NCBI RefSeq assembly: GCF_900119365.1
Contig: NZ_FPJO01000006.1
Span: 186,001 to 250,000, forward strand
DNA: 64,000 nucleotides
Direction: 5' to 3'
Source of the DNA: Streptomyces atratus
Lineage (GTDB): Bacteria; Actinomycetota; Actinomycetes; Streptomycetales; Streptomycetaceae
The notes beneath the pieces were generated by a model. That model did no database searches. It saw nothing but the letters and a program-made list of their open reading frames with translations, and was not told the origin of the DNA. How positions within the stretch are numbered: position 1 is the first letter of the stretch; the number at the start of each line of letters is the position of its first letter. Below, piece by piece: positions 6,739 through 29,177 of the stretch. The translations under genes and the position numbers were made by a program.

Positions 6739-6741
6739 GGT

Positions 6742-9263: not shown

Positions 9264-9276
9264 GAGGGAAAGCGAC

Positions 9277-10494: not shown

Positions 10495-10597
10495 TGAACG
10501 CGGCAGCCGAGGTCAGCAGCAATGCGCGCCAGCCTCGCTCACCTCAGTGGTGACCTCTACCTGGAGAAACAATCCCTTCCGAGACCTCGGAGCCGCA

Positions 10598-12418: not shown

Positions 12419-12578
12419 GCCGACCCACGGTCACGCATGCGCGTCCGGCAGGCGGCCCACAGCTGACCGCGGCGGAGTTCGATGTGCTGTACCGCAGGAT
12501 GCTCTCGCGCGCACTGCGTCGCCCAGGGCAACCGGACAGCCAGGTCGTCGCCGAGCCACCACAGCTGACATCCGCAAA

Positions 12579-12617
12579 CGCCCCCGCCTGCCGGCGGATC
12601 GGCAACAGGCGGGGGCG
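12579..12617. terminator. strong 12-bp GC hairpin
   Basis: CGCCCCCGCCTG at 12579-12590 pairs perfectly with CAGGCGGGGGCG at 12606-12617 across a 15-base loop. It lies about 160 bases after the GH15 stop and has no T tract, as is common for actinomycete terminators. The sequence from 12419 to 12860 contains no recognisable gene. Confidence 0.7.
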
Positions 12618-12860
12618 GTCCGGTGCGGATGTCGCGGACGGCCTGGCGGGCCACGGCGCGCACCGCCGGCTCATCGGTGGTCGGCGCCTTCTGACGGCGC
12701 GCCCGGTCGGCCCCTACGGGCCTGAGCGACCGGCAGCCCGAACCGGTCGGCCGACAGCCGTCCCGCTTCGCGTCGTCCCGGACTCGGATGGTCCAATCAT
12801 CAGGATGTTCCTTGTATCTTTTGCTGTGAACGGCGGCGACCGGACAGGGAGGTGTCGCGG

Positions 12861-13349
12861 ATGGTGCGTCTGACCCGCGAGCGTGCCGCCACGGCTGAGC
12901 ACAGCGGCACCGCGGAGTCCCACACCACCAGCGCGGTCCCGCAGCCTCCGACACCGTCTGCGGGATCCATCGCCGACGCGTTGGGCGCATTCGCCCGGAC
13001 CTGGCTCGAACGAATGCCCCTGGCCGACGGCACCCCCTCCTTCGGCCGGGTGCATCTCCGCTCGCCGGCCGGGGTTCTCGACGACGAACCGATCCGCGAC
13101 GCGTTCGGACAGGTGACCCACCTCGAGGCTCTGCTGCTGGCACTCGCGCTCGAGTCGCACGCGCCCGCCGACGCCCCGTCCGTGCGTCAAGTCCGGCGGG
13201 CCCAGCTGGTCCTGAGGCTGCTGGGGGCCCGGGTGCCTCGGCGGATCCGGCGCTCGGCTTCGGTGACCCCTTCGACATCGTTCAGGCCTGCGCGCATCTG
13301 GGCGGGCTCACCCTCGCCGACACCTGGAACCCTTGGGGCCGCGCCATGA
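12861..13349 (+). CDS. protein of unknown function, 3' part frameshifted
   Basis: A good ribosome-binding site (GGGAGGTG, 12848-12854) precedes ATG 12861. The frame codes well up to about residue 121 (LVLRLLG). From about 13228 onward the coding signal (GC at third positions and natural amino-acid usage) moves to the frame of the next gene, reading ASADPALGFGDPFDIVQ without a stop or start through to 13346. A single G missing from the G run at 13223-13227 explains this. The two adjacent frames are therefore probably one gene (about 372 residues, 12861-13978) broken by a frameshift or a sequencing error. The family is not recognised. Confidence 0.6.
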   Translation: MVRLTRERAATAEHSGTAESHTTSAVPQPPTPSAGSIADALGAFARTWLERMPLADGTPSFGRVHLRSPAGVLDDEPIRDAFGQVTHLEALLLALALESHAPADAPSVRQVRRAQLVLRLLGARVPRRIRRSASVTPSTSFRPARIWAGSPSPTPGTLGAAP

Positions 13350-13978
13350 CCCAGCCTGTTTCGTCCCACGCGACCAGCACCGACCTCCTGGTGCTTCACA
13401 CCCTCCGCTGCATCGGCTTCTCCGGCCTCTCCGGGGTGGCCAGGGCGTCGGGACTCCCCGAGTCCGACGTCGAATCGGAACTGATCGACCTCGCCGTGGC
13501 CGGACTCGTCACCCATGCTGCGGGCGACTTCGGCGGATGGGGCCTTACGGAGGAGGGTCGAGCCGCGGACGCCGAGCGGATCGCCGACGAGTTGGAGGAA
13601 GCCGGAGCCCGGGCCCGACTGACCGCGGCGTTCGACCGGTTCCTGGTGCTCAACCCCGAGCTGCTGGATCTCTGCACGGCGTGGCAGACCCGCACCGTAG
13701 GCGGCTCCATGACGATGAACGACCACAGCGACCCCTCCTACGACGCCCGGGTGCTCGACCGGTTCACGGAGTTCCACCAGCGTGCCGAGCCCCTCTGCGC
13801 CGAGCTGTCCGCGGCGCTGCTCCGCTTCCGGCGCTACCCCGTCCGGCTCGCCGACGCGCTCGCCCGGGCGAGGGCCGGCGCTCTGGAGTACGTGACGGAC
13901 AGCACGTCCTCGTATCACACCGTGTGGTTCCAGCTGCACGAGGACCTGCTGGCCACCCTCGGTATCCCGCGCCATTGA
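13346..13978 (+). CDS. winged-helix-like protein of unknown function (probably second half of a frameshifted gene)
   Basis: A 210-residue frame starting MTQPVSSHATSTDLLVLHTLRCIG. Residues about 10-80 resemble a winged helix (short helices, then GLTEEGR). The rest is helical and includes NPELLDLCTAWQTR. The same frame is open and well-coded for at least 37 codons before the ATG, which argues that translation originally began at 12861. It is followed 77 bases later by a PPDK-like gene in the same direction, so it may regulate or assist that enzyme (inference). Function is unknown. Confidence 0.65.
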   Translation: MTQPVSSHATSTDLLVLHTLRCIGFSGLSGVARASGLPESDVESELIDLAVAGLVTHAAGDFGGWGLTEEGRAADAERIADELEEAGARARLTAAFDRFLVLNPELLDLCTAWQTRTVGGSMTMNDHSDPSYDARVLDRFTEFHQRAEPLCAELSAALLRFRRYPVRLADALARARAGALEYVTDSTSSYHTVWFQLHEDLLATLGIPRH

Positions 13979-14055
13979 ATCCCCCGCCCGCCACCCCGCG
14001 CACGGCGCAGGACCCGCAGCCGAATCAGCAAGGGCGACGCAGAGATGACCACGCG

Positions 14056-15702
14056 ATGACCTGGATTCACCCCATTTCGGCTGAGGTCGAGGAGACGGCG
14101 GAAGTCCTCGGCGGCAAGGCACTCGGTCTCGTCGTGCTCCGCCGTCTGGGACTGCCCGTGCCGCCGGGCTTCGTCATCAGCACGGAGGCGTGCCGCGCCT
14201 TCCTCCGCACCGGACGGCTGCCCAGCGGCCTTGACACCGAACTGGCGGCCGCCGTCGCCGGCCTCGAAGCCGCCACGCACCGCAGGCTCGGCGGTCCACG
14301 GCGGCCGCTTGCGGTGTCCGTCCGCTCCGGCGGCAGCGTTTCGATGCCCGGCATGATGAGCACCGTCCTCAACCTCGGGCTCACCACCGAGGCGACCACC
14401 ACCCTGGCCGACGAGACGGGCGACCTGCGGTTCGCACTCGACTCGCGGCTGAGGTTTCTGACCGGCTTCGCCTCCGAGGTCGCCGGCGTGGGCCCGGAGA
14501 GCCTGGCGGCCATCGACCGTGCGCTCGCCGGACAGGACACCGACACGAGCCGCCTCGCCGAGGCGATCCGGGACGTCGAGCAGCTCATCGCAGAACGCAG
14601 CGGCGACAGCGTGCCCGAGAACGCCACCCGCCAGTTGGAGCTCGCTGTCGAGGCCGTGTTCTCGTCGTGGAACACACCGCGCGCGAAGACCTACCGCGAA
14701 CTGCACGGCATCCCGCACGACCTCGGCACCGCCGTGACCGTACAGGCGATGGTGTTCGGCAATCGTGACCAACGCAGCGGAACGGGCGTCGCGTTCAGCC
14801 GTGATCCCAACACCGGCGAGCATGTCCCCTTCGGTGAGGCCCTGTTCGGCCGACAAGGCGAAGACGTCGTCTCGGGATCGTCACTGACCGAGCCCCTGAG
14901 CGAACTGGCCGACCGGGAACCCGAGGTGTGGACCCGCCTGCTGTCCGCCCTGACCCGGCTCGAGGAGAACTACCGCGACGCGTGCTACGTCGAGTTCACC
15001 TTCGAGGCGGGCGAACTGTGGATCCTGCAGGTCCGCCGGGGGCGGTTCGTCGGGCGCGCCGCAGTCCGGGTCGCGGTCGACCTGGCCGACGCGGGAACGA
15101 TCGGGCGCGACGAGGCGCTGCTCCGCGTTTCACCGCAGCACCTCACCCACATACGTACGCCTCGGATCACGGCGATCGAACCCCGCGACCTGTTCACCCG
15201 AGGGCTGGGCGCCTCCCCGGGAGTCGCTGTCGGCCAGGTGGCGACCACCGCCGACAGCGCGGCCCGGCTCGCCGCGGGAGGGCCGGTCGTCCTGCTGCGC
15301 CCCGAAACCTCCCCGCTCGACATGCACGGCCTGGCCGCCGCCGCCGGGGTGGTCACCGCTCGCGGCGGCCCGACGAGTCATGCGGCCGTGGTAGCGCGGT
15401 CGATGGGGAAACCCGCCGTCGTGGGGGCCGCGAACCTCACCGTCGACGCCGCCGACGGCTGCGTCCGGGCAGGCGGACGCACCCTGCCCGAAGGCACCCT
15501 CATCGCCGTTGACGGAACGGGCGGAGAGGTCGTCGTCGGCGAGCCCCGCATCGCCGCGTCCTCGACCGATCCACAGCTGCACCGGCTGCTGAGCTGGGCC
15601 GACGACGTCGCGGGCGACAGGACCACGGGCCGCAGCGAATCCGAACGCCTCACCTCGGCACAGGCCGCCCTCCGGCGGACCGGCGACGGACCGGAGAGCT
15701 GA
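14056..15702 (+). CDS. short pyruvate,phosphate dikinase-like protein (ATP-grasp plus phosphohistidine domains)
   Basis: 548 residues. The N-terminal PPDK/PEP-synthase ATP-binding domain spans about 1-370 (LGGKALGLVVLRRLGLPVPPGF; SVRSGGSVSMPGMM). It is followed by the mobile phosphohistidine domain with the catalytic motif GGPTSHAAVVAR and His442. The C-terminal PEP/pyruvate barrel (about 350 residues) of full PPDK, about 870-900 residues long, is absent and there is no sign of it downstream. It may transfer phosphate to another acceptor, or be a PPDK-derived enzyme with a separate partner. The start lacks a strong ribosome-binding site; it lies 77 bases after the unknown gene. Confidence 0.8.
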   Translation: MTWIHPISAEVEETAEVLGGKALGLVVLRRLGLPVPPGFVISTEACRAFLRTGRLPSGLDTELAAAVAGLEAATHRRLGGPRRPLAVSVRSGGSVSMPGMMSTVLNLGLTTEATTTLADETGDLRFALDSRLRFLTGFASEVAGVGPESLAAIDRALAGQDTDTSRLAEAIRDVEQLIAERSGDSVPENATRQLELAVEAVFSSWNTPRAKTYRELHGIPHDLGTAVTVQAMVFGNRDQRSGTGVAFSRDPNTGEHVPFGEALFGRQGEDVVSGSSLTEPLSELADREPEVWTRLLSALTRLEENYRDACYVEFTFEAGELWILQVRRGRFVGRAAVRVAVDLADAGTIGRDEALLRVSPQHLTHIRTPRITAIEPRDLFTRGLGASPGVAVGQVATTADSAARLAAGGPVVLLRPETSPLDMHGLAAAAGVVTARGGPTSHAAVVARSMGKPAVVGAANLTVDAADGCVRAGGRTLPEGTLIAVDGTGGEVVVGEPRIAASSTDPQLHRLLSWADDVAGDRTTGRSESERLTSAQAALRRTGDGPES

Positions 15703-15708
15703 CGGCGT

Positions 15709-16224
15709 TCATGCGGGGCGCGCGAGACTCGGTCGGCGTGAACCCTTGAACCGGCGGGCCGGCGCGAGCGCCTTCTCAAGTTCGGGCCGTACCTTGATCC
15801 GGGTGCTGATCTGCTCGGAGAAATCCTTGTGGCACTCCGCCCACCGAAGGGCTGCGAGCTGACTCGCCAGCTCCTGCCGGGCGGTCGACGTCCTCGCGTA
15901 CCCGATCCGGATCGGCCGCTCGGTGCATGGTGCGGGCACGACGGCGAGCGCGCGGGGGCGGGACGGCTCCCATGGCCCGCCGCCGTCCTCTGCGGCCGCC
16001 CGGGCCCAGAACTCGTTGAACTCGACGAGGTCGAGGCTGCCGGGCGGGCCGTCGGGAACCAGGAGGCCGAGGTAGTCGTCGAAGTCGCCGTAGCCGAACC
16101 GCTCGACCAGTTCCTTGTAGTCTCTGGGCAACGCTGTCCCGAGCCGGGACTCGACTGTCGCCCAGTCGACAGCGGCGTCGCCCCGCTCCCGTGTCCATCC
16201 GGTGACGGCGACGACCTGGTCCAC
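15709..16224 (-). pseudogene. SMI1/KNR4-domain protein fused to a truncated serine-resolvase N-terminus
   Basis: From GTG 16224 (GGAGGGG about 10 bases upstream) the first about 100 residues form a SMI1/KNR4 (SUKH) domain: VDWATVESRLGTALPRDYKE, then FGYGDFDDYLGLLVPDG. SUKH proteins are often immunity proteins of contact-dependent toxins. At about 15915 the frame continues without a break into IRIGYARTSTARQELASQL and FSEQISTRIKVRPELEKAL, the first 55 or so residues of a serine recombinase with its catalytic Ser, and then stops. The resolvase body and DNA-binding part are missing. The C-terminus of the SUKH protein has been replaced, so either part may be inactive. Upstream DNA (16230-16414) reads as a Gln/Pro-rich segment in another frame, suggesting an additional frameshift. 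Confidence 0.55.
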
Positions 16225-16429
16225 CCAGGGACATCCCCTCCGTCGGCCCGTCCCGCTGCTCCTTCGGTACGGCTTTCGCCACCGGCTGCTGCTGCGATGT
16301 GTCGACCTGCGCGCCCGGCTGTCGAGGTACCGCCTCCGCGTCGGGCTGCTGCTGTACAGCCTGCCCGGCCACCAGCACCACCCTCGTCCGGTTCGTAACT
16401 GCGCGGGGCACCAAGGCCGCGTGTACTGA

Positions 16430-16774
16430 TCAACTCCAGTAAGCTGACCGTGTTTTAGGAAGTGGCAAGGCCGCGAGTCGACTGCGTGCGATAGCGGGAA
16501 GCACCCGATGTAGCCGACGTTCGCAGTCTTCAACGGAGCTCTGATGAACTTGTCCATTTGCGTTCAGCAGGCTCCGCCCCCGTCCTGCGATCGTTTCCGG
16601 GGGCTGGAGTTGCGCGAGGGCCGGCCGGGCGACCGTCGCCGCCTGTGGGGATCGCGGCGCTGGGGCCTTGGCCGGCTCGGGCGATTCACCGGACCTCGCC
16701 TCGGCATGGCAGTCGTTTGTCTGCGGTGGCACTTCTCCGCCGCACGAACGGTCCATGCACTGCTCACTTGCCAC
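16430..16774 (-). CDS. small hypothetical protein divergent from the conservon
   Basis: GTG 16774 is preceded by GGAG at ideal 7-base spacing and opens a 114-residue frame starting MASEQCMDRSCGGEVPP. The first about 60 codons have good GC third positions; the C-terminal 40 do not and may be eroded. Three Cys residues lie close together at the N-terminus (positions 6, 11 and 22), possibly metal-binding or redox-active. No family is recognised. ATG 16776 in another frame shares the same ribosome-binding site but gives an unlikely Arg/Pro-rich peptide. Confidence 0.4.
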   Translation of the reverse strand: MASEQCMDRSCGGEVPPQTNDCHAEARSGESPEPAKAPAPRSPQAATVARPALAQLQPPETIAGRGRSLLNANGQVHQSSVEDCERRLHRVLPAIARSRLAALPLPKTRSAYWS

Positions 16775-16884: not shown

Positions 16885-18285
16885 GTGACCTTGTCCTCAA
16901 AAATCGCCGTTGCCCTTGGCGTCTTGTCTCTCCTCCTAGCAGTCTGGGCGCTGCTCCTGGCACGCTCGCGCCGCAAACACGTACGACAGGGGCGAGAGTT
17001 GTCCGCGGAGGCGCAGGCCGCCAATTCCCGTGCGCAGGCTGCCGAGGGTCGCGCCCGAACCGAGGTGCAGAACAGGCAGGCCGCAGAGTCCCGCACGACG
17101 GAGCTCAATACCCGCGAGGCGGAGCTTCTCGACGAAGTGCGTCACCTCGTCTCCGATCGGCTTCCCGCTCTCGCACTGCACCTGATCAGCTCTCATCACC
17201 CCGTCCCCGGACTCCTGCACAAGCACCTCGCGGGGTCCGAGGCTGCACAGCTCCTCGACGCCCTGCCCGAAGCGGTTTCTGGCATCGTCCTCAAGGAAAG
17301 GCGCCGCATCGACGCCGCTGCCCGGGCTGCCCTGCGTGGCGCAACTCAGGAGTCCCAGGCCCTCTCCTACCGGTTGCAGACGAATATCGTGGGTCTACAG
17401 CACGAGTTCAGCGCGCCGCCCCGTCTGACGCAGAGTCTGCTTGAGTCCGACCACATCAATGAGCAGAACCTGCGCCTCACGCAGAGATCCGCCATCGTGT
17501 GCGGAGGCTGGCCGGGTCACGTCCGCAAGGACACCTATGTGAGCGAGGTCGTCAGTGGCGCCTCCTCCCGGCTGCGCGGCTTCGACCGCATCAACATCGT
17601 TTCTCGGCTGGGCCTTTCCAACATCGGCGTGGTCGGGCGTGCGGCCGAGCCCGTTGCCGTGGTCTGCGCCGAGCTGATGGCCAACGCGCTGGAGCACTCC
17701 CGTGACGACCTCATGGTGGACGTCGGCTTGATCCAGACCGGCAACGGCAGTGTGTGCATCACGATCGACGACGCCGGCAAGGGCATGACCTCAGAAGCGC
17801 TCGCCCGCGGCCGAAGTCTGATATCGGGTGAACAGCAGGAGGTGATGCTCCTCGAGCTCGGCGACCCGCCGTCCATGGGCTTCGCCGCCATCGGCCGTCT
17901 CGTCGCCGACTACGGCCTCCATGTCTCCATCGACACTTCCTCTCCCTATGGCGGGGTGCGCGCTGTGGTGTCCGTTCCCGAGAACTTGTTGACCTCGATC
18001 GACGAATACGCCACACCTCCGTCGGTCATGGCTCCCCAACCTGCCGTGGCGCCACAGGCCCACAAGCGGCCCGCCGCTGCCGACTCGCCCGCGCACTCGC
18101 CCGCGCCGACCGGCGCGGCCGCGCTGCCGCAGCGCCGCCGCCGTTTCTCGGCGACAGCCACCAATGATGAGGCCGCCGCAGCGCCCCGCCCCTTGAACCC
18201 GGAAGACACCGGTGCCATGTGGAGCGATTTCCAAAGTGGCCTCACCAGCGACCGGTCCGTCACCGATTCGGAGTCAACACTGTGA
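16885..18285 (+). CDS. cvnA: conservon sensor histidine kinase-like ATPase CvnA
   Basis: About 466 residues. A single N-terminal membrane helix (VALGVLSLLLAVWALLLA) is followed by a coiled coil rich in Ala, Arg and Glu (about 35-95), a helical dimerisation region, and a GHKL ATPase domain with N-box ELMANALEHS (from 263) and G-box DDAGKGM (295-301). The C-terminus (about 375-466) is a Pro/Ala-rich tail. Conservons (cvn) are Streptomyces operons encoding a membrane-associated switch resembling a eukaryotic G-protein system. No large extracellular sensor domain is present, so the input is probably membrane-proximal or cytoplasmic. GTG 16885 has AGGA 9 bases upstream. The stop overlaps cvnB (GTGA). 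Confidence 0.88.
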   Translation: MTLSSKIAVALGVLSLLLAVWALLLARSRRKHVRQGRELSAEAQAANSRAQAAEGRARTEVQNRQAAESRTTELNTREAELLDEVRHLVSDRLPALALHLISSHHPVPGLLHKHLAGSEAAQLLDALPEAVSGIVLKERRRIDAAARAALRGATQESQALSYRLQTNIVGLQHEFSAPPRLTQSLLESDHINEQNLRLTQRSAIVCGGWPGHVRKDTYVSEVVSGASSRLRGFDRINIVSRLGLSNIGVVGRAAEPVAVVCAELMANALEHSRDDLMVDVGLIQTGNGSVCITIDDAGKGMTSEALARGRSLISGEQQEVMLLELGDPPSMGFAAIGRLVADYGLHVSIDTSSPYGGVRAVVSVPENLLTSIDEYATPPSVMAPQPAVAPQAHKRPAAADSPAHSPAPTGAAALPQRRRRFSATATNDEAAAAPRPLNPEDTGAMWSDFQSGLTSDRSVTDSESTL

Positions 18286-18719
18286 CCATGTCTGAAGCCC
18301 ACGAAGAGACCGGCCCGTCCGCCTGGGTCCTGAAGCCCATCACCGAAATCCGTGGTGTCCGGCACGCCCTGACCATGACTCTCGACGGGATGGTCCAGGC
18401 CATCTCCGAGGATCTCACCAAGGACGAGGCAGACGGCATCGGTGCGATGACCGCAGCGCTGCACTCCGCCTCCCGCGCCGCCACCAACGCCGTTCTGGGA
18501 GCCCCTCGAAGCACTCCGCTCAAGACCGTCACCTCGCACAACGACCGGGGCATCTACATGGTCATGCCGGTCGGCGAGGGAACCAACACCCTGATCGCGG
18601 CGGCGGGCGACGAGGACATGCCCATGGGAGTGGTCGCGGCCACCATGGCCCGCCAGGCAATGAAACTCGGGGAACAGATAATGTCCGTTCCCGCCCGTAC
18701 CGGCGACGGGGCGTCATGA
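18282..18719 (+). CDS. cvnB: roadblock/LC7-domain protein CvnB
   Basis: About 145 residues starting at GTG 18282, which overlaps the cvnA stop and has GGAG 8 bases upstream; ATG 18288 is the alternative. The roadblock/LC7 fold is visible: ITEIRGVRHALTMTLDGMVQAIS, an Ala-rich central helix, then the repeated beta-hairpin (GIYMVMPVGEGTNTLIAAAG). In conservons CvnB behaves as the regulator or adaptor of the small GTPase CvnD at the membrane. The stop overlaps cvnC by 4 bases (ATGA). Confidence 0.92.
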   Translation: MTMSEAHEETGPSAWVLKPITEIRGVRHALTMTLDGMVQAISEDLTKDEADGIGAMTAALHSASRAATNAVLGAPRSTPLKTVTSHNDRGIYMVMPVGEGTNTLIAAAGDEDMPMGVVAATMARQAMKLGEQIMSVPARTGDGAS

Positions 18720-19099
18720 GCCGGGGCCAGGAACAGCGACGGCTGCTGCCGGCCTACCTCGCGACCGGGACCAGCCCCGGCGCCGGCCTCTCGGGCACCC
18801 TCGATTCGCTGGCCGCTCTGCGTGCCAGTGGTCTGCCCCTCGCGAGGTACCACACAGCGGTGCACCAGCGCGTGATCGAGCTCCTCACCGACGGATCGCT
18901 CAGCGTCGTCGAACTGGCCGGCTACCTCGGCCTCCCGGTCAGCGTGACTCTGGTGCTCGCCGAACAACTTGTCAGTGACGGTCAGTTAAAGGCCACCGTC
19001 CCGCTTCCGGACGCCCTCCGCGCGTCGAACGATGGCCGACCGTCGAAAGAAGTCCTGGAGGAGGTTCTGAGTGGACTCCACGCTCTCCTTGCCGCCTAG
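18716..19099 (+). CDS. cvnC: DUF742 protein CvnC
   Basis: 127 residues, the usual size for DUF742. It contains the family's RLLPAYLATG start and a winged-helix-like core (QRVIELLTDGSLSVVELAGYLGLPVSVTLVLAEQLVSDG). It is the third conservon component, thought to work between the CvnA ATPase and the GTPase. It overlaps both neighbours (4 bases with cvnB, 29 with cvnD), so expression is translationally coupled. Confidence 0.92.
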   Translation: MSRGQEQRRLLPAYLATGTSPGAGLSGTLDSLAALRASGLPLARYHTAVHQRVIELLTDGSLSVVELAGYLGLPVSVTLVLAEQLVSDGQLKATVPLPDALRASNDGRPSKEVLEEVLSGLHALLAA

Positions 19100-19691
19100 C
19101 TCGCCCCCCGTCTACCTGCCCGAGGGGGAACACCGAAGGATCAAGATCCTCGTTGCCGGCCCGCTCGGTATCGGCAAGACGACCGTGGTCAAGTCGCTGT
19201 CGCAGATTCCGACACTGCACACCGACGAGGTCATGACGAACGCGGCGGTCGCTACCGATGACCTCAGCCACGATGTCCTGCGCGACAAAACCACCACCAC
19301 GGTCGCCATCGACTTCGGCCGTCTGACGCTGCCAGGCGACAAGATCGTTCTGTACCTGTACGGAACTCCGGGGCAGCGCCGCTTCCTTCCGCTGTGGGAA
19401 GGCATCGCGTTCGGAGCACTCGGTGCCCTCATCCTGGTCGACACCCGGCGGCTCAAGGACTCCTGGGAAGTGATGGAACTCATCGAGGAGCGCGGTTTGC
19501 CGTACGCCGTCGCTGTCAATGTCTTCCCTGACTCACCCAAGTACGACTTGGCGCTCATCCGTTCGAAGCTCGACCTCGCCCCGGAGACACCACTGGTCAC
19601 CTGTGACGCACGAGAGAAGAACAGCGGCCTGCACGCCCTCGCCCAACTGACCGCCCATTCCATATCCGTTGCCGGAGTCAAAACCTCGTGA
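19071..19691 (+). CDS. cvnD: conservon small GTPase-like protein CvnD
   Basis: 206 residues beginning MDSTLSLPPSSPPVYLPEG. The Walker A loop is GPLGIGKTT (residues 30-38). The switch/G3-like region is TPGQRRFLPLW, and ILVDTRRLKDSW lies in the middle of the fold. CvnD proteins bind GTP or ATP and form the switch of the conservon. GTG 19071 lies inside cvnC; GGAGG at 19059-19063 is at suitable spacing. It overlaps cvnE by 4 bases. Confidence 0.92.
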   Translation: MDSTLSLPPSSPPVYLPEGEHRRIKILVAGPLGIGKTTVVKSLSQIPTLHTDEVMTNAAVATDDLSHDVLRDKTTTTVAIDFGRLTLPGDKIVLYLYGTPGQRRFLPLWEGIAFGALGALILVDTRRLKDSWEVMELIEERGLPYAVAVNVFPDSPKYDLALIRSKLDLAPETPLVTCDAREKNSGLHALAQLTAHSISVAGVKTS

Positions 19692-20980
19692 CGCTCACAC
19701 CAGCCGAAGCCCCCGTGTCCCTGCACGGGGCCGAACACGCCGCGAACCCGCAGCGCAGCTATGAACTGCTGCGCAGACAGGGACCGGTCGGCGTAGCCGA
19801 GGTGGCCCCCGGTGTCGTGGTCAACCTGGTCACCGACTACCGGGCCGCCCTCGACCTCCTCCAGGACACCGATACGTGGACCAAGGACACCCGGAGCTGG
19901 CTGCCGCAGGTGCCGGAGGACAGCCCGATCCGGCCCCTGGTGGAGTGGCGGCCGAGTCTGTTCTTCGCCGACGGCGAGGCACACGCGCACCTGCGACGTG
20001 TGATCACGGACAGCTTCGGTCTCCTGGATCCCCATGATGTGCGCACCCTGACATTCCGCTTCGCCGACACGCTGCTCCAGGAATTCGCCGATACCGGGAC
20101 GGTCGACCTCGTCCGCCAGTACGCGCAGCAGCTGCCCCTGATGGTCTTCAACGCTCTGTTCGGCATGCCGGACGAGGAGGGCCGGCGGCTTGTGTGGGCG
20201 CTCGGGGCGATGATGGACAGCGATCCGGAGACGCAAGCAGCGGGCGGGCAGTCGTTCGGCGCCTACCTCGAAACGCTCTACGCGACCAAGGCGGCACAGC
20301 GCGGCCACGATCTGACCTCCTGGTTCATCGATCATCCCAATGGGCTGAGCCAGGAAGAGGCCGTCAACCAGATCCTCATCACCCTCGGGGCCGGGAACGA
20401 GCCGCTGGGCAACCTCATCGCCAACACGCTCGTCCGCATGCTCAGCGACGACCGCTATTTCGGCACCCTGACCACCGGGAGCCTGCCCATCCAGAACGCC
20501 ATCGACGACGCGCTGTGGCACGACGCGCCGCTGGCCAACTACAGCGTCCACTTCCCCAAGAAGGACGTGACCTTCCACGGCGCTCGCATCCCCGCGGGCT
20601 CGCCCGTCATGGTGTCGTACGCAGCCGCCAACACCTGTCCCCACTCGGGCATTCCGGCGGACGGCTACCGCTCCGGGAACAAGGCCCACCTGGCCTTCGC
20701 CGCAGGTCCCCATACATGTCCTGCCCGTGACGTCGCCACACTGATCGCCACGGCCGCCATCGAGAGGCTCCTGACCTATCTGCCGGACATCGAACTGGAC
20801 GTTCCCGCCGGCAGGCTGACCTACCGCCCCGGGGCTGTCCACCGGACGCTCACCACGCTCCCGGCCCGATTCACCCCGCTGACCCCCGACGCCGAGGGGG
20901 CCACCCCCTGGAGCCGGAGCCCCTCCCGCCCCGAGCGGGACACGCCGTCGGCCTCGACGTCAGGCAGGTCTGAGGCGTAG
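19688..20980 (+). CDS. cvnE: conservon cytochrome P450 CvnE, K-helix ExxR motif absent
   Basis: 430 residues, starting at GTG 19688 that overlaps the cvnD stop. The heme loop FAAGPHTCPARDV with Cys344 is clear. The I-helix reads GAGNEPLGN rather than AGxET. Where other P450s have ExxR, this protein has DDALW (273-277). Loss of ExxR is the described hallmark of the CYP157 family found in conservons, so this is probably a CYP157-like protein. The Ser/Pro/Arg-rich tail (about 400-430) is unusual. It is the last gene of the operon and is followed by a strong hairpin. A role in the switch rather than ordinary hydroxylation is possible (inference). Confidence 0.88.
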   Translation: MTLTPAEAPVSLHGAEHAANPQRSYELLRRQGPVGVAEVAPGVVVNLVTDYRAALDLLQDTDTWTKDTRSWLPQVPEDSPIRPLVEWRPSLFFADGEAHAHLRRVITDSFGLLDPHDVRTLTFRFADTLLQEFADTGTVDLVRQYAQQLPLMVFNALFGMPDEEGRRLVWALGAMMDSDPETQAAGGQSFGAYLETLYATKAAQRGHDLTSWFIDHPNGLSQEEAVNQILITLGAGNEPLGNLIANTLVRMLSDDRYFGTLTTGSLPIQNAIDDALWHDAPLANYSVHFPKKDVTFHGARIPAGSPVMVSYAAANTCPHSGIPADGYRSGNKAHLAFAAGPHTCPARDVATLIATAAIERLLTYLPDIELDVPAGRLTYRPGAVHRTLTTLPARFTPLTPDAEGATPWSRSPSRPERDTPSASTSGRSEA

Positions 20981-21010
20981 AAGCCGAATCACCTGCCGTC
21001 GATCGTCGCG

Positions 21011-21051
21011 TCGCGGTGGTGCCGCCCGGGAGCCGGCCGGCACCACCGCGA
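21011..21051. terminator. 14-bp hairpin closing the conservon
   Basis: TCGCGGTGGTGCCG at 21011-21024 pairs perfectly with CGGCACCACCGCGA at 21038-21051 over a 13-base loop. It starts 31 bases after the cvnE stop and ends 94 bases before the diterpene operon start. It implies that the diterpene genes have their own promoter between 21052 and 21145. Confidence 0.8.
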
Positions 21052-21145
21052 CAGCCTTAGGAAGGAGACGCGGGTCCGTTGGCCCCGTCCTCTGCAAGAA
21101 CGGAACCGCAACGACGGTTCTCGAACGAAAGAGGATCAACCGCCG

Positions 21146-22225
21146 GTGACACAAGCCCTTCCCACAAAACTGCCCGACCTCTCTTCCCTACGACAGAAGG
21201 TGGGCGCGGCTCTGACCGGATTCCTGGACACCAAGGAACGTGCTGCGCCAGGAATCGAGCTGCTCCACCTGACCACCGCCCTGCGCGGACTTCTGACCGG
21301 CGGAAAACGACTTCGGTCCCTGCTGTGTCTGTACGGATGGCAAGCCGCCGGAGCAACAGGCGACATGACTGCTGCCGTTCGCGCTGCCGCCAGTCTCGAA
21401 CTCTTCCAGGTGTTCGCCCTGGTACACGACGACGTGATGGATGACAGCGATATCCGCCGCGGCCGGCCGTCCGCCCACCGTGCACTGGCCACCGCGTATA
21501 CCGACAGCGGCGGCCCCGGCAGCAGGGCCCAGGCGCATGGTCTGGGCGCGGCCGTCCTTCTCGGAGACCTGGCCCTGGTGTGGTCCGATGAACTTCTCCG
21601 CACAGCGGACCTCAGCCCGGGGCGGCTGGCACAGGTGCTGCCCCTGGTGGCCGAAATGCGGAGCGAGGTCATGTACGGCCAGCTCCTGGACTTGCAGACC
21701 ACCGGCCGTCTTACCGGCGACGTGGATACGGCACTGCACGTCATTCGATACAAGACGGCCAAATACACCATAGAACGGCCCCTGCACATAGGGGCGGCTG
21801 TGGCCGGAGCCACCCCACCCGTACTCGATGCATGCACCGCCTTCGGCATACCACTAGGAGAAGCGTTTCAGCTGCGGGACGACCTGCTCGGGGTCTTCGG
21901 CGATCCCGCCAAGACAGGCAAACCAATACTGGACGACCTGCGCGAGGGCAAGGCCACCGTCCTGATGGCACTCGCGGTCCAGCGAGCCTCCACGGCCGAA
22001 CTGAAAACACTGCGCGAACTCGTCGGCCGAAGCGACCTCAACGAGGAACATGCCGCCGCGGTCCGCACGATCCTGAACTCCACCGGCGCCCGGCAGACCG
22101 TGGAGGAAATGATCACCACGCGACGGGCGGCCGCCCTCGCCGCCCTGGACAACGCCCCCTTCCCGGGAAGTACCACAGCCTCCCTGCGCCGGCTCGCCCT
22201 GGACGCAACGGCCAGGCAGGCATAA
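21146..22225 (+). CDS. polyprenyl (geranylgeranyl) diphosphate synthase
   Basis: 359 residues. The first aspartate-rich motif is DDVMDD (95-100), the second DDLLGVFGD (245-253), and FQLRDD and the KT(G)K pocket are intact. The family condenses isopentenyl diphosphate onto allylic diphosphates. Because the next gene is a class II diterpene cyclase, the C20 product GGPP is expected. GTG 21146 has AGAGGA about 10 bases upstream. It is the first gene of a four-gene diterpenoid operon; the next starts 48 bases downstream. Confidence 0.92.
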   Translation: MTQALPTKLPDLSSLRQKVGAALTGFLDTKERAAPGIELLHLTTALRGLLTGGKRLRSLLCLYGWQAAGATGDMTAAVRAAASLELFQVFALVHDDVMDDSDIRRGRPSAHRALATAYTDSGGPGSRAQAHGLGAAVLLGDLALVWSDELLRTADLSPGRLAQVLPLVAEMRSEVMYGQLLDLQTTGRLTGDVDTALHVIRYKTAKYTIERPLHIGAAVAGATPPVLDACTAFGIPLGEAFQLRDDLLGVFGDPAKTGKPILDDLREGKATVLMALAVQRASTAELKTLRELVGRSDLNEEHAAAVRTILNSTGARQTVEEMITTRRAAALAALDNAPFPGSTTASLRRLALDATARQA

Positions 22226-22273
22226 GGCATCGCCGCACTCCGCTAGTCAGAACCCCGAGGAGGAAGTCGCCCC

Positions 22274-23872
22274 ATGAGCATCAGCACACCCATCGGCACG
22301 TCCTACACCGAGCGAGCGACCAGCCTGGTCGCGAGGGCAGACCAGGACCGATGGGGAAGCGTCCGTCCTTCCCTGTACGAGACGGCCCGCGTCCTCTCGG
22401 CGGCACCGTGGTTGCCCGGGGAGCCACAGCGGATCACGTACCTGCTGGAACAGCAGGCACCCGACGGCAGTTGGGGGGAGGGACCGCTGCCCTACCGGCT
22501 CCTGCCGACACTCAGCGGCGTGGAGGCCGCACTGGCGGTCCTGCGAAGGGGCACCGCGTCCGCAGAGGGTACCGGCCGGCTCACGACCGCGGTGAACAGG
22601 GGCCTCGACGTACTGCGATCACTGCCACCGGTGGGCCCGTGGCCGGACACGGCTGCAGCGGAAATACTCGTACCCAGCCTGATAGCCAAGATCAACGAGA
22701 AGTTGGGCTCCCCGGCCACCGGCGAGGACATGCCAAGCTTCGGTGGCCGTCGGCTCGCGGTTCCGGGCGGCTTTCATGAGTCGGCACCTGCTTCCGTGGC
22801 CAGACGGTACGAGTCGGCGGGCAGCCTGCCCATCAAGTTTCACCACACGTTCGAAGGCATAGACAGCTACATACCGCCGGCTCTCGTCCCTGACGTCGAA
22901 GGCCTGCTGGGCAGCTCGCCGGCCGCCACCGCGGCGCGGGCAATGCGGTCACCTGATACTACCGCTAAGGCCGTCGCCGATCTCACAGCAGTGGCGCAGC
23001 GCTACGGCGGTCTCTTCCCTGAGGCCGCGCCCCTCCGCGTGGTCGAACGGCTATGGGTCGCCGCCGCGCTGGCGCGCGCCCACCTGCCCGTTGCCGCTCT
23101 TCCCACTGTCCGCGGGTGGGCCGAGGAGATCTACGACTCTCAGGGTGTGCGCGGTGCGCCCGGCCTCATGACCGATGCCGACGACACCGCCATGGCGGTG
23201 CTGGTTGCCTCGCTCGTCGGCCTGCCGTACGACCCGGCACCGCTGGACCTGTTCCACAACGGCAGCCACTACGACTGCTACATCGGCGAGGACACCGGAT
23301 CGGTCACCGCGAACGCCCACGCCCTCCAGGCCCTGGTGAGCTACCTGCGGCGCTGCCCGACGGCAGAGCATACGTACGGCCCCCGAGCGGCGAAGCTGTG
23401 CGACTGGCTGACCGGCCAGCAGCGGCCCGAAGGGCACTGGACCGACAAGTGGCACGCCTCCCCCTACTACGCCACCGCGCGGAGCGTCACCGCGCTCGCA
23501 CAGTACGGCGGCCACCAAGCGTCCAGGGCCGTCCGGAGGGCCGCCGCGTGGACCACTGAGACTCAGCGCGCCGACGGCTCCTGGGGTGTGTGGGGCAGCA
23601 CCGTCGAAGAGACCGCATACGCCGTCAAAATCCTGCTGAGCGCCGCCACCCCCACACCGCAGCCACAGCACACCCGGGCCCTGGACCTCGCCGAGACATA
23701 CCTGCGCACCGCCTCGCACCCCAGCCACCAGCACCCCGCCCTGTGGCACGACAAAACCCTGTACGCGCCCACCGCAGTGATCGAAGCGGAGGTGCTCGCT
23801 GCGCGGGAGTTGCTGCGGGCACGTCGCGCAGCCGCATGTACAGAAGCAGATGTGGAAAGGACGGACGCGTGA
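22274..23872 (+). CDS. class II diterpene cyclase (copalyl diphosphate synthase-type)
   Basis: 532 residues with the two alpha-barrel domains of bacterial class II cyclases. The general-acid motif DxDDTAM is DADDTAM (Asp301, Asp303, Asp304). QW-like repeats are present near residue 60 (QAPDGSWGEG) and near 430 (QRADGSWGVWG). No class I DDxxD is present, so it protonates GGPP to a labdane-type copalyl diphosphate and leaves the diphosphate for the class I enzyme encoded two genes later. AGGAGGAAG lies 4-12 bases before the ATG. The stop overlaps the P450 start (GTGA). Confidence 0.93.
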   Translation: MSISTPIGTSYTERATSLVARADQDRWGSVRPSLYETARVLSAAPWLPGEPQRITYLLEQQAPDGSWGEGPLPYRLLPTLSGVEAALAVLRRGTASAEGTGRLTTAVNRGLDVLRSLPPVGPWPDTAAAEILVPSLIAKINEKLGSPATGEDMPSFGGRRLAVPGGFHESAPASVARRYESAGSLPIKFHHTFEGIDSYIPPALVPDVEGLLGSSPAATAARAMRSPDTTAKAVADLTAVAQRYGGLFPEAAPLRVVERLWVAAALARAHLPVAALPTVRGWAEEIYDSQGVRGAPGLMTDADDTAMAVLVASLVGLPYDPAPLDLFHNGSHYDCYIGEDTGSVTANAHALQALVSYLRRCPTAEHTYGPRAAKLCDWLTGQQRPEGHWTDKWHASPYYATARSVTALAQYGGHQASRAVRRAAAWTTETQRADGSWGVWGSTVEETAYAVKILLSAATPTPQPQHTRALDLAETYLRTASHPSHQHPALWHDKTLYAPTAVIEAEVLAARELLRARRAAACTEADVERTDA

Positions 23873-25248
23873 CTGCCGACATAGATGTGACTGCCGACAT
23901 GGACGTTCCGCCGACCGCTCCGGGGCGGCTGCCGCTCATCGGACACGTTGTACCCCTGATCAAGGACCGCCTGGAGTTCGTCGAACGCCTGCGCACGTAC
24001 GGGCCGATCGTCCGTATGTCGGTCGGCCCCAAGAAGGTGACCGTGGTCAACTCGCATGAGCTGATCCACGAGATGCTCACCAGCAAGTCCGGCTCCTTCT
24101 CCAAGGGGTTGCTGGGCGAGAAGCTCAAGCTTTTCGGTCAGTCGGCCCTGCCGGTCGCGGAAGGCGAGCCCCACCTGCGTCGGCGCCGCCTGCTCCAGCC
24201 CGCCTTCCACCGCGAGCGGATCAGCGGGTACGTCAACACGATGCGGGAAACGGTGGAGCCGTCCATCACGGGCTGGCGTGAGGGGGAACTGCTCGACCTG
24301 AAGACCGAAATGGGGCTCATGGCCCAGGACGTGGCCATGTCGGTGCTGTGCTCCTTCCGCGCGGAACAAGAGCGGGCGCGCGCGATCCTCGACGCCGTCG
24401 ACACAGTCTTCACGGCCGCCATCTGGCGCACCATGGTGCCCGTGTCCTCGCTGGAACGGCTCCCCACCCGCAGCAACCGGCGGCTCAAGGCCGCCCGCAG
24501 CCTGCTGCGCAGCGAGGTGGCGGACATCATCGCGGAGCGCCGGGCGGCCCCCGACGCCCATGACGACCTCGTGACGCTGCTCCTGGAGGCCCGGGACGAA
24601 ACCGGTGCGCCACTGCCCGACAACGAGATCCTGTCGGAGATCATCGGGCTGCTGGCCGCAGGCTCCGAGACGACGGGAGTCATGCTGGCCTGGCTGTTCC
24701 ACGAGCTGGGCCGCGACCCCGAGCTGGAGCGCAGGCTGCACGAGGAGGTCGACTCCGTGGTCGGAGAGGGCCCGATCACCGCCGAGCACGTCCCCCAACT
24801 CTCCTTCACCCGCAGACTGGTCAGTGAGACCCTCCGCCTGCACCACGCCGGCTGGCTGGTGACCCGGCAGGCCACCAAGCCCGTACGCCTCGGGCAGGTC
24901 AGCCTGCCGGCGGGGGAGCAAGTGCTATGGAGTCCCTACGCACTGCACCGGGACCCGGCCCTGTACCCCGACCCGCTGCGCTTCGACCCCGACCGCTGGC
25001 TGCCGGAGCGCCCCCAGCCGCCGAGGGGAGCCTTCATCCCCTTCGGGTCAGGAAAGCGCATGTGCATCGGCGACGCGTTCGCCTGGACGGAGGGGATCGT
25101 CATCACGGCGTTCATCGCGTCCCGCTGGCGGCTGCGGCCCGTTCCCGGCGCCACCGTGAAGCCGATCGGGCTGCTCACCGTGCACCCGTCGGACCCCCGT
25201 ATGGTCGCCGAGACCAGGCAGCGGGCCGTCGCGAGGACAGCCGTATGA
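23869..25248 (+). CDS. cytochrome P450 of the diterpenoid cluster
   Basis: 459 residues from GTG 23869, which overlaps the cyclase stop and has GAAAGGA 7 bases upstream. A proline-rich N-terminus (PPTAPGRLPLIGHV) is followed by the I-helix AGSETT (264-269), ExxR (Glu320-Arg323) and heme loop FGSGKRMCIGD with Cys399. All invariant residues are present. By position it should hydroxylate the diterpene hydrocarbon made by the flanking cyclases. Its N-terminus carries a short internal repeat (TADIDV/TADMDV). The stop overlaps the next gene by 4 bases. Confidence 0.93.
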   Translation: MTADIDVTADMDVPPTAPGRLPLIGHVVPLIKDRLEFVERLRTYGPIVRMSVGPKKVTVVNSHELIHEMLTSKSGSFSKGLLGEKLKLFGQSALPVAEGEPHLRRRRLLQPAFHRERISGYVNTMRETVEPSITGWREGELLDLKTEMGLMAQDVAMSVLCSFRAEQERARAILDAVDTVFTAAIWRTMVPVSSLERLPTRSNRRLKAARSLLRSEVADIIAERRAAPDAHDDLVTLLLEARDETGAPLPDNEILSEIIGLLAAGSETTGVMLAWLFHELGRDPELERRLHEEVDSVVGEGPITAEHVPQLSFTRRLVSETLRLHHAGWLVTRQATKPVRLGQVSLPAGEQVLWSPYALHRDPALYPDPLRFDPDRWLPERPQPPRGAFIPFGSGKRMCIGDAFAWTEGIVITAFIASRWRLRPVPGATVKPIGLLTVHPSDPRMVAETRQRAVARTAV

Positions 25249-26234
25249 GCCACACCCGCAGCTCGGACGCGCGTACCCTGCCGATGCCCGACCTCCGAGG
25301 CTCTTTCCCCGGCCCCTTCGCCACCAGCCCGTATGCCGACGCCATCGAGGAGCAGACCGCCCACTGGCTCCGGGCCTTCCCCTTGATCGGTTCACCCGGC
25401 GAGGCGAAGGCCCTCTGCAACATCACGGCCCACGGGGTGGCTCGTGTGTTGCCCGCGGCGGACCGGGACGGCGTGTTCCTGTGCGCCGATCTCTTTCTGT
25501 GGCTCACCGCGTTCGACGACGTACACGGCGAGGCCGAAGGAGGCCGTGACACCGCCCGTCTGGTCCGCCGCATCAGTCACTGTGTCCATCTGCTGGCCGG
25601 CCACGACGAGCCGGCGGCCGATGACGACGCCTACATCGCCGCCCTGCGGGACCTTCTGCACCGGTTCCGGGAACGGGCCACGCCCGCGCAGTACCTGCGG
25701 CTCACCGCACACCTGCGGGACAACCTCTTCGGCATCCTCTGGGAGGCCCATCACCTCGACAGACCCGACCAGGTCACCCTGAGCGACTATTGCGCGATGC
25801 GCCCCCACACGGTCTTCGTCCGGACCGTCATGGCGACCGCGGAAGTCGCGCTCGGATACGAACTGACAGAGGATCAGCGAACCTCGACAGCGGTGCGGGA
25901 ACTAGAGAAGGCCGTTGCCGACCTTGCCGGGTGGATCAACGACCTTGCCTCGTACGCGAAGGAGACGGATCGCGGTGGCCCGACTCCTCCGAGCCTGCCA
26001 ACACTGCTGATCCGACACCGCGAGTGCGACCTCGAAGAGGCGTTCCGCCTGGCCTCCCGCATGTGTGAAGGCCAAGCCTCCACCGCACGCCTTCGCATCA
26101 CCGAACTCGCCGCCAACAGCGGGAACGCCCTCGCGGATCACGCTCGCGCCATGGAGGCCGTCGCAGCCTCCTACGTGTGGCACATAGGACACGCCCGCTA
26201 CGACTCCTTCGGCGAGGTCGGTGCCATGCAGTAG
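25245..26234 (+). CDS. class I terpene synthase acting after the class II cyclase
   Basis: 329 residues, the usual length of bacterial class I synthases. The Mg-binding motifs are DDVHGE (Asp91-Glu96) and the NSE triad NDLASYAKE (Asn232, Ser236, Glu240). Family markers near the C-terminus include the Tyr after the last helix (HARYDSF). It would ionise the copalyl-type diphosphate and form the final hydrocarbon. The gene order GGPPS, class II cyclase, P450, class I synthase is the one I recall for cldA-D (cyslabdan) and rmnA-D (raimonol). A labdane-type product is therefore the leading guess, but side-chain and ring chemistry cannot be read here. Confidence 0.92.
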   Translation: MSHTRSSDARTLPMPDLRGSFPGPFATSPYADAIEEQTAHWLRAFPLIGSPGEAKALCNITAHGVARVLPAADRDGVFLCADLFLWLTAFDDVHGEAEGGRDTARLVRRISHCVHLLAGHDEPAADDDAYIAALRDLLHRFRERATPAQYLRLTAHLRDNLFGILWEAHHLDRPDQVTLSDYCAMRPHTVFVRTVMATAEVALGYELTEDQRTSTAVRELEKAVADLAGWINDLASYAKETDRGGPTPPSLPTLLIRHRECDLEEAFRLASRMCEGQASTARLRITELAANSGNALADHARAMEAVAASYVWHIGHARYDSFGEVGAMQ

Positions 26235-27555: not shown

Positions 27556-27655
27556 GTGATCTTCACGGAGCAGTACGCACACCGGGCCGGTGTCGAAGGC
27601 ACGATCTCCCAAGGCGTTCGGGTCTTCGGCCTACGGCGATGCCGCTATCACGGAA
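27556..27655 (+). pseudogene. DDE transposase C-terminal relic
   Basis: The frame reads EQYAHRAGVEGTISQGVRVF followed by GLRRCRYHG. This is the highly conserved end of Streptomyces DDE-domain transposases of the IS1182-like type. Only about 33 codons survive and the sequence then joins a different fragment. Confidence 0.55.
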
Positions 27656-27855
27656 GGACTCGCAGCCGCCCGCGCCTGGGCCAACGTGCACGGCCACCTC
27701 CTGCCGCCTGCCACCCCAATCGGCGAACGCGGATACCCCATTGGCACCTGGGCCAAGAATCTCCGATTCGCCGCACGGACCGCGGATCAGATCGCGCAGC
27801 GGCAGCAGGCCGGCCTTGCCGTCCCTTCCAGTGCGGGCGTGCTGACCGAGGCGCG
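27629..27855 (+). pseudogene. relic of a helicase-associated domain
   Basis: In a frame overlapping the transposase relic, the sequence EGLAAARAWANVHGHLLPP followed by GYPIGTWAKNLRFAARTADQ matches the helicase-associated (HA) repeat found in large actinobacterial DEAD-box helicase-like proteins (pattern A-R-x-(Y/W)-x-x-x-H-G-H-L ... G-x-x-L/I-G-x-W). No helicase core is nearby, so this is a fragment. Confidence 0.45.
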
Positions 27856-27879
27856 GCAGGCGGTGCGACGCCGGGGATC

Positions 27880-28222
27880 CGGCCGTAGGGGGCTTTGTAG
27901 CCGACGGTGCCGGTGAAGGCGGCGGGGATGCGGGTGGAGCCGCCGATGTCGGAGGCGGAGGTGAGCAGTGCGGTGCCGGCCGCGAGGGAGGCGCCCGCGC
28001 CGCCGGACGAGCCGCCGGGGGTGAACTCGGGGTTCCACGGATTGCGCGTAACGCCCCACAGGCGGCTGTGGGTGAAGGTGGCGATGGAGAACTCGGGGGT
28101 GGCGGTGCGGGCGTGGATGATGCCGCCGGCGTCCAGGATGCGGTCGATCACCGGGGCGTTCTCGGTCGCTGTGCTGCCGACATCGACGAGCGAGCCCTCG
28201 GTGAGGGAGCGCCCGGCGAGCC
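27880..28222 (-). pseudogene. amidase-signature fragment
   Basis: The minus frame reads AGRSLTEGS, then ILDAGGIIHARTATPEFS, TPGGSSGGAGASLAAGTA and SDIGGSTRIPAAF. This is the Gly/Ser-rich core of amidase-signature enzymes, including the cis-Ser and nucleophile region. The protein start and the C-terminal half are missing. At 28222 the frame runs in without a break from an M20 peptidase fragment. Confidence 0.65.
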
Positions 28223-28470
28223 AGTGGGCGGCCGCCGCGAGCAGCGCCGTCACACCGGTCCGGATCGTGGGCTCCGGAACGGGGGCGAAGTACGGGGAGT
28301 GGTTGGCGGGGATCGTGTCGGGCAGACCGTCCGTCAGCAGGGTTCCGGGGTCGATGTGCTGGAACAGTGCCGGGTCGGCGCCGCCGAAGTGCCAGAAGAC
28401 CGAGGGGACACCGAGGGCCGTGCCGAAGGCACCGAAGTCCTCGCTGCCGGTGACTTCGATCTCCTGGCGT
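28223..28470 (-). pseudogene. M20-type amidohydrolase C-terminal fragment
   Basis: The minus frame reads EVTGSEDFGAFGTALGVPSV followed by FWHFGGADPALF, IPANHSPYFAP and VTALLAAAAHWL. This is the last part of M20 peptidases/N-acyl amino acid amidohydrolases, including the metal-binding Glu/His region. The N-terminal metal-binding domain is absent. The fragment is joined in frame to the amidase piece. Confidence 0.6.
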
Positions 28471-28537
28471 CGGTCGTCGCGGCCGACCTGCCCGCCCTCG
28501 GCCGCTCGGTCCATGGCCTGATCGGCGGTCTGAAAGG

Positions 28538-29177
28538 TGTACGGTCCACCCGTACGCGGCCCGGCATCACGCTGTACAGCGAGGGCGGCGACTGGCGGAT
28601 GCGGGCCATGGAGCCCTCCGGCCACGCGGAGCTCTCCACCCCGCGCGCCTCACGCCCGACCGTGTACAGCGCCCACATGCATCACCGGCCGCCGCCCGGG
28701 GACCGGGCTCTCCTGGAAGCCCTCGGCCGCGACGGGCGCCTCGGCTACACCGACCTGGGCGCCGCGACAGGCATGAGCGAACACACCGCCCGACGCCGGC
28801 TTCAGCGGATGATCCGGGACAGAGACATCACCTTCCGCTGCGACCTGGCCCACCCCGTCGCCGGGCTCTCGACGGTCGTGCTCTACCGCGCCGCGGTCCC
28901 GCACACCCATCTCGAAGGCACGGGCAACGCGCTGGCCCGGATGGAAGAGGTTCGCCTGGCCGTGTCCATCAGTGGTTCCGACAACCTGCTCGTGATGGTC
29001 CGGCTGCGCGGCCTGCACGCCATCGACCCCTTCGAAGCGCACCTCGCGGAACGCTTCCCGAATCTGACGGTCAACGACCGCACCGTCTTCCTCCACTCCC
29101 GCAAACGCATGGGCCGACTCCTCGACGCCACCGGCCGTGCCATCGGGCACGTCCCCTTCTCCCTGCCACAGGTCTGA
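28538..29177 (+). pseudogene. Lrp/AsnC-family regulator, 5' truncated
   Basis: The frame enters from the M20 relic and reads as the C-terminal half of a two-module Lrp/AsnC regulator. The second HTH is RALLEALGRDGRLGYTDLGA followed by TGMSEHTARRRLQRMI, and the ligand-binding domain ends in the typical FLHSRKRMGRLLDATGR. The first HTH module is missing. Internal ATGs at 28599 and 28677 could still give a protein of 160-190 residues, so activity as a short Lrp is not excluded. It has no clean promoter of its own. Confidence 0.6.

Follow-up and report, generated by a model that had tools for sequence, protein, structure and literature searches.

A CvnE-type conservon recurrently paired with a labdane-like diterpene gene cluster in Streptomyces atratus and its relatives

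Conservons, the actinobacterial type of G-protein signalling system, comprise four syntenic core genes, which encode a HATPase (CvnA), a roadblock protein (CvnB), a DUF742 protein (CvnC) and a small GTPase (CvnD), and in several cases have been described beside biosynthetic genes. Here we describe a conservon of Streptomyces atratus, cvnA-B-C-D-E, that is followed head to tail by the genes for a geranylgeranyl diphosphate synthase (GGPPS), a class II diterpene cyclase, a tailoring cytochrome P450 and a class I diterpene synthase. The nine genes lie in a stretch of 64,000 nucleotides (contig NZ_FPJO01000006.1 of assembly GCF_900119365.1, positions 186,001 to 250,000), referred to below as the window, with the conservon at 16885-20980, the biosynthetic genes at 21146-26234 and a gap of 165 bases between them (20981-21145). 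This gene order and spacing, proposed in an earlier note on the same DNA, have been borne out by the reading frames and by Pfam and NCBIfam searches.

Pairings of conservons with gene clusters that have appeared in print concern prenylated indoles, a lanthipeptide and frankiamicin (PMC3617294, PMC8510531, PMC4383371); here and below, statements taken from cited papers refer to parts of their text. In the clusters of the SCO7467/7468 type, the conservon, in some cases with a P450, always precedes the genes of a small pathway that uses isoprenoids (PMC3617294); compared by description, these clusters make prenylated indoles, whereas the cassette described here encodes a GGPPS and two diterpene cyclases. 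Cvn8 of S. coelicolor represses the adjacent lan cluster (PMC8510531) and is likewise a conservon beside a biosynthetic cluster, but it includes the GAF protein CvnF8 rather than a CvnE, and the product is a lanthipeptide. Close in architecture are the CvnE-type conservons cvn9-cvn12 of S. coelicolor, which have the same cvnA-B-C-D order, a P450-type fifth gene and a sensorless CvnA (PMC13343842, PMC8510531). According to a published rule, CvnE or CvnF accompanies those CvnAs that have no sensor domain; furthermore, CvnE11 has been modelled on the HATPase domains of CvnA11, and, by the same account, neither accessory type had been assessed biochemically (PMC13343842). The terpene mention in PMC6428758 concerns 2-methylisoborneol. 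No conservon-diterpene pairing was found in the literature searched, which did not extend to the primary descriptions of cyslabdan, raimonol and labdanmycin. The earlier note's suggestion of a new regulatory pairing therefore stands for diterpenes within that literature. Published examples of a conservon next to a biosynthetic cluster of another type make the conservon-labdane pairing an unusually tight new case of a known kind of association.

The diterpene half of the cassette resembles a labdane-type cluster. In the cld, rmn and lrd clusters, responsible for cyslabdan, raimonol and (E)-biformene, the genes are ordered GGPPS, class II, P450 and class I, and the four-gene half of the cassette follows the same order (one locus, L036, is without the P450). 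These clusters are treated in PMC10301674 together with the structure of the (E)-biformene synthase LrdC; the parts considered name biosynthetic genes alone and mention no conservon, and the comparison is one by description (PMC10301674).

Recurrence of the nine-gene cassette

The class II cyclase of the window was searched against 392 genomes of the genus, its own included, which had been sampled evenly from a larger group. Full-length relatives with at least 54% identity were found in 15 genomes, again including its own, and in every one of these 15 GGPPS follows directly on the end of cvnE. In all 14 relatives among the 391 other genomes the conservon is present in the same order and on the same strand as far as the contigs reach (stretches of up to 20 kb), with the blemishes that one contig ends after class II (L039), one cassette is without the tailoring P450 (L036) and one cvnE is frame-broken (L044). 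The eight next class II genes (36-41% identity, L016-L023) have no such cvnE upstream, and six of them viewed at 20 kb (L045-L050) gave no cvnA-cvnD match; four of these six carry P450 genes matching CvnE at 24-28%.

A second search, with the alignment of the 15 cyclases as query, yielded 78 distinct loci from the best 80 of 157 candidates. Five conservon genes stand directly upstream in 27 of the 28 loci with a class II identity of at least 53% (24 Streptomyces and three Kitasatospora records), and with six further genomes (G000, G344, G065, G354, G044 and G380) the pairing is present in 33 of 34 distinct genomes. The conservation in other actinomycetes that the earlier note had named as its check is thus observed. 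The contig of L117 ends after class II, and the assemblies of L167 (class II and P450) and L124 (cvnE and part of GGPPS) contain broken frames. The sole exception is S. odonnellii L127, an 8.5-kb contig in which class II (5872-7368) begins at about residue 152, is split into two pieces, and adjoins a DDE transposase. The 6 kb upstream of this class II gene contain no conservon, and the locus is a decayed one.

The association also holds in the reciprocal direction. The 14 best CvnE matches in the 392 genomes (61-100% identity, own included) are all cassette members, and the fifteenth cassette (G224) falls outside them with its broken cvnE. For the next 20 matches (at most 56%), a blastp comparison of predicted genes at 1e-5 detected no gene matching the GGPPS, class II or class I of the window within 13-19 kb in 20 of 20 cases. 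In a tree constructed without L124, 32 cassette CvnEs are separated from 16 core CvnEs, that is, those far from terpene genes, by one branch with a support of 84/100 that is present in all 200 bootstrap trees, although the program warns of long branches, that of core_L079 above all. Compared with cvn9-cvn12, the cassette CvnE is a distinct lineage, found among the genomes searched only with the labdane-type cluster. With just 11 DUF742 matches in the 8.5-Mb genome of S. atratus, and with recurrence in 33 of 34 genomes that have a close class II cyclase, the pairing is more than chance.

The surroundings of the cassette vary. When open frames within 5 kb on each side were compared by blastp, the flanking genes formed 22 context groups upstream and 24 downstream among 32 loci each, counts that may be raised by false splitting where flanks, which ranged from about 0.5 to 5 kb, are short. 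The boundary from cvnA to class I remains constant while these surroundings differ, which argues that the nine genes form one cassette; adjacency merely through conserved chromosome order was ruled out by the differing flanks, in a test of 15 loci and then of 32. Over 29 loci (L117, L036, L124 and L167 excluded, class II rows cut at 560 residues), the correlation of pairwise distances between CvnE and class II is 0.95, that between CvnE and GGPPS 0.96 and that between CvnE and class I 0.95, figures to which species descent contributes; the distances of the tailoring P450 correlate less with all other genes (0.70-0.83). Of the nine genes, that of the tailoring P450 is tied most loosely to the rest; in genome G065 it is absent altogether, class II being separated from class I by L036:6746-6844, and the conservon is complete. 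All nine genes are under purifying selection: in ten close pairs the ratios of nonsynonymous to synonymous substitution rates (dN/dS) are 0.01-0.39 in the conservon and 0.12-0.58 in the biosynthetic half. Its conservation, its recurrence as a nine-gene unit in varied surroundings and this selection strongly support the conservon-diterpene pairing as real.

Cassette proteins and the gap between the two halves

The features of the window are collected in Table 1 with four loci of a second kind that are discussed below. The coordinates first proposed stand for the nine genes, but the best start of the P450 is at 23869 and that of class I at 25245; in both cases the gene overlaps the preceding stop by 4 bases. 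Over-long frames in L106, L108 and L126 raised the question of a class II-P450 fusion, which was ruled out by a stop between the two genes in each. Just upstream of cvnA, a frame on the reverse strand (15709-16557) combines a truncated resolvase N-terminal match (residues 218-269) with a weak SMI1/KNR4 match and is a possible trace of insertion; downstream of the cassette, a reverse-strand frame with an incomplete Amidase domain (27648-28625, profile positions 62-175 of 445) looks like gene remains.

Table 1. Features of the cassette in the S. atratus window and conservon-cyclase pairs at distant loci
Sequence	Feature	Position	Strand or orientation	Remarks
Window	cvnA	16885-18285	+	histidine-kinase-like; single membrane helix near the N-terminus, extracellular sensor domain absent; HATPase_c just under Pfam cut-off
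Window	cvnB	18288-18719	+	roadblock/LC7 (MglB-like); PF03259 Robl_LC7, 8.8e-08
Window	cvnC	18716-19099	+	DUF742 protein; PF05331, 3.4e-14
Window	cvnD	19071-19691	+	small Ras-like GTPase; PF03029 ATP_bind_1, 8.9e-20
Window	cvnE	19688-20980	+	P450-fold accessory protein (predicted); ExxR Arg replaced by Trp, heme Cys kept
Window	hairpin after cvnE	21010-21052	+	terminator-like, without T-run; stem score 17
Window	element before GGPPS	21087-21134	+	CCTCT, inverted repeat GAACCG-N6-CGGTTC, Shine-Dalgarno AGAGG; from alignment of 16 gaps
Window	GGPP synthase	21146-22225	+	PF00348 polyprenyl_synt, 3.1e-54; DDVMD
Window	class II diterpene cyclase	22274-23872	+	PF13243 SQHop_cyclase_C, 2.1e-12; DADD motif
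Window	tailoring P450	23869-25248	+	PF00067, 4.4e-76; canonical ExxR and heme loop
Window	class I diterpene synthase	25245-26234	+	PF19086 Terpene_syn_C_2, 1.6e-35
L136 Phytohabitans	conservon and cyclase	9941-15571	same strand	91 bases between conservon and cyclase
L146 Amycolatopsis	conservon and cyclase	5532-11596	divergent	660 bases
L147 Longispora	conservon and cyclase	5844-11359	divergent	306 bases
L153 Dactylosporangium	conservon and cyclase	5837-11647	divergent	181 bases

All four core genes of a conservon are present, CvnA being marginal by its Pfam score (HATPase_c, 25.2 bits against a cut-off of 26.4). By hydropathy, a single membrane segment is predicted for the CvnAs of 33 of 33 cassettes and an extracellular domain for none, in line with the published rule for the pairing with CvnE or CvnF. 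The histidine of a D-H-x-N-E motif, the putative phosphoacceptor of CvnA, is found in 29 of 33 proteins, and the remaining four (L040, L118, L119 and L167) have D-Q, so that the kinase step may differ there; these four are also the loci whose class I enzyme is nearest LrdC. The GxxGxGKTT and GTPGQ motifs of CvnD are present in 33 of 33.

CvnE had no Pfam match, and six NCBIfam P450 models matched it far under their cut-offs (best E 8.3e-22); a P450 fold is suggested by a Foldseek comparison made on a predicted model of moderate confidence (predicted local distance difference test score, pLDDT, 68.9). Tryptophan replaces the ExxR arginine (LW) in 33 of 33 CvnEs and proline replaces the I-helix threonine in 22 of 33; all 32 readable sequences keep the heme cysteine. 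CYP157 proteins encoded behind conservons have also lost the ExxR motif of the K-helix (PMC3599690), and the cassette CvnE is like them, by motif and gene position, in its E..LW K-helix, its retained heme cysteine and its place after the conservon. The LW motif occurs in 15 of the 16 core CvnEs as well, the sixteenth not being fitted by the search pattern; the heme-loop pattern fitted just one of the 16 and is uninformative on their cysteine. That CvnE is a dead pseudogene was ruled out by its dN/dS of 0.09-0.33 in the ten pairs.

The biosynthetic proteins have the motifs expected of their families: DDVMD in 32 of 33 GGPPSs (out of frame in L124), DxDD in 33 of 33 class II cyclases, metal-binding motifs in all 32 class I enzymes that could be read, and the canonical ExxR and heme loop in 31 of 31 tailoring P450s. 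The nearest solved structure of class II is an ent-copalyl diphosphate synthase (5BP8, 2.3e-90), and that of class I is the labdane-related diterpene synthase 6OH6 (7.6e-95, 321 bits), which we take to be LrdC. The class I enzymes of L167 and L118 are much closer to 6OH6 (585.8 and 536.4 bits), and that of S. anulatus L122 is less close (248 bits).

The gap between cvnE and GGPPS measures 128-210 bases in 32 loci (L124 excluded). In the window it contains a hairpin with a long, near-perfect stem (outer arms GTCGCGGTGGTGCC and GGCACCACCGCGAC), which scored 17, whereas ten shuffles reached at most 9. The earlier note had held that this hairpin makes read-through unlikely. The idea is supported by stems scoring at least 11 after cvnE in 21 of the 32 gaps (at least 9 in 25), with sequences that differ between groups, and is weakened by four gaps with shorter stems (9-10) and by those with no stem above their shuffles; the stems of L113 (11 against 11) and L167 (9 against 9) are likewise not strictly above theirs. 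In an alignment of 16 gaps chosen from the 32, the hairpin has ten pairs, with 93.8% of the helix cells paired and four pairs changed on both sides.

Nearer to GGPPS, a block with the elements CCTCT, GGAACCG...CGGTTC and a Shine-Dalgarno sequence is conserved. As judged from the letters, CCTCT could pair with the Shine-Dalgarno AGAGG and sequester it; the block could equally be an operator at the DNA level, since the folds of this leader are not unusually stable (z-scores from -1.73 to +1.52 in 20 sequences) and its pairing changes are one-sided. With a single occurrence of its pattern in the S. atratus genome it is not a genome-wide box. No claim is made for a riboswitch or other regulatory RNA, as Rfam gave no match at E values up to 1 and the fold scores are weak. 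Words of nine bases common to the region upstream of cvnA and the gap were sought in 32 loci as signs of a shared operator, and none recurs in more than three; in the form searched, the GAACCG-N6-CGGTTC-type repeat is present in 11 of 32 gaps versus none of 33 regions upstream of cvnA. A scan for sigma-70-type promoters, which is uninformative for Streptomyces, gave no match against 0.7 expected.

Conservons beside distant class II cyclases

A conservon lies directly beside the cyclase gene in four of 50 loci with distant class II cyclases (34-42% identity; Table 1). The CvnAs of these four loci are sensor-bearing, with 803-843 amino acids and two membrane helices about 270 residues apart, and no CvnE was seen beside the conservons. 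The loci stand in three places of the printed cyclase tree; the program's count of one change omits 46 unlabelled rows. The four genomes have two to six DUF742 matches each, which makes chance adjacency improbable (about 0.1% per locus by a rough estimate). A general association of distant class II cyclases with conservons was rejected, 46 of the 50 loci, three of them short contigs of 4.8-8.0 kb, showing no CvnD match in the stretch examined.

Proposed working, competing explanations and meaning

The reading that we consider probable from the sequences is that the nine genes form a cassette in which the conservon is dedicated to regulating the labdane-type cluster that follows, with CvnE as its input module. 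CvnA, anchored by a single membrane helix and devoid of a sensor domain of its own, would be governed by CvnE, a P450-fold protein without the ExxR arginine that would serve as an input module rather than an oxygenase. By analogy, CvnE is a likely input on account of the rule that links it to sensorless CvnAs and of the modelling of CvnE11 on CvnA11 (PMC13343842). Together, CvnA, CvnB and CvnC would set the GTP state of CvnD, which would in turn raise or repress expression of the GGPPS-class II-P450-class I unit; the repression of the neighbouring lan cluster by Cvn8 offers a precedent for such an output, again by analogy. The biosynthetic unit is probably transcribed separately, from a start within the gap of about 150 bases behind the terminator-like hairpin. 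We infer a regulatory link between conservon and diterpene genes and, on the same footing, the direction of control, the separate transcripts, a sensor role for CvnE, the ligand that it would bind and the route by which CvnD would act on transcription.

Several observations weigh against this reading. Seven gaps (L112, L114, L116, L121, L122, L123 and L125) have no stem above those of ten shuffles, the leader element is absent in several groups of loci, and the putative phosphoacceptor of CvnA is a glutamine in the four loci named above. The core CvnEs share LW, from which it follows that CvnE did not lose ExxR in adapting to diterpenes. Between L121 (4600-13883) and L125 (4602-13865), synonymous divergence (dS) is 0.14-0.27 in the conservon genes versus 0.03-0.06 in the biosynthetic genes, which points to recombination within the cassette and speaks against strict co-inheritance; the halves can recombine apart with the pairing left intact. 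Finally, four-gene clusters (cldA-D and lrdABDC) gave labdanes in other Streptomyces hosts (PMC10301674); on that account synthesis does not require the conservon, which fits regulation and also fits no role.

A bolder form of the proposal, less likely than not, is that CvnE is a P450 turned receptor, whose heme pocket would bind the cluster's own labdane or a precursor and report through CvnA to the GTPase CvnD, providing feedback or autoinduction by the diterpene; more widely, conservons would have been recruited beside diterpene cyclases repeatedly, as might suit lipophilic, membrane-borne signals.

Alternatively, the conservon might act on the enzymes and not on their genes, either through a membrane complex of CvnA-E that gathers or switches them or with CvnE as a P450 of the pathway. 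The nine genes include none for a transcription factor, the flanks are as variable as described, and CvnE has retained the heme cysteine and tracks the cyclases in its distances, all of which would suit such a role. We regard it as unlikely, nevertheless: no cassette CvnE has the ExxR arginine and most have no I-helix threonine, LW is equally a property of core CvnEs outside such clusters, and only four genes are named, in the parts of PMC10301674 considered, for the clusters from which other hosts produced labdanes.

An ancient linkage that is functionally neutral and has persisted solely through horizontal transfer as a block would agree with the patchy spread (15 of 392 genomes) and the 22-24 context groups, but is quite improbable in view of boundaries that are constant in 33 of 34 genomes despite protein divergence of up to 41-58%, of the purifying selection on every conservon gene, and of a tailoring P450 that is tied less tightly than the conservon and absent in L036. 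Least probable is that the conservon senses membrane stress caused by labdanes and, instead of the cluster, governs genes for tolerance or development located elsewhere, an idea in keeping with the wide action of conservons on development and metabolism (PMC8510531, PMC6428758) but opposed by the finding that no CvnE above 56% identity was found outside the cassette in the 392 genomes and that no obvious tolerance gene is among the nine.

In the genomes searched, a single conservon lineage and a small pathway of known chemical type thus go together almost one to one. The cassette thereby offers labdanes as a candidate ligand and, as a candidate target, the roughly 150 bases that separate cvnE from GGPPS, which together make the question of conservon input testable with few genes, and it may help to switch on silent labdane clusters.

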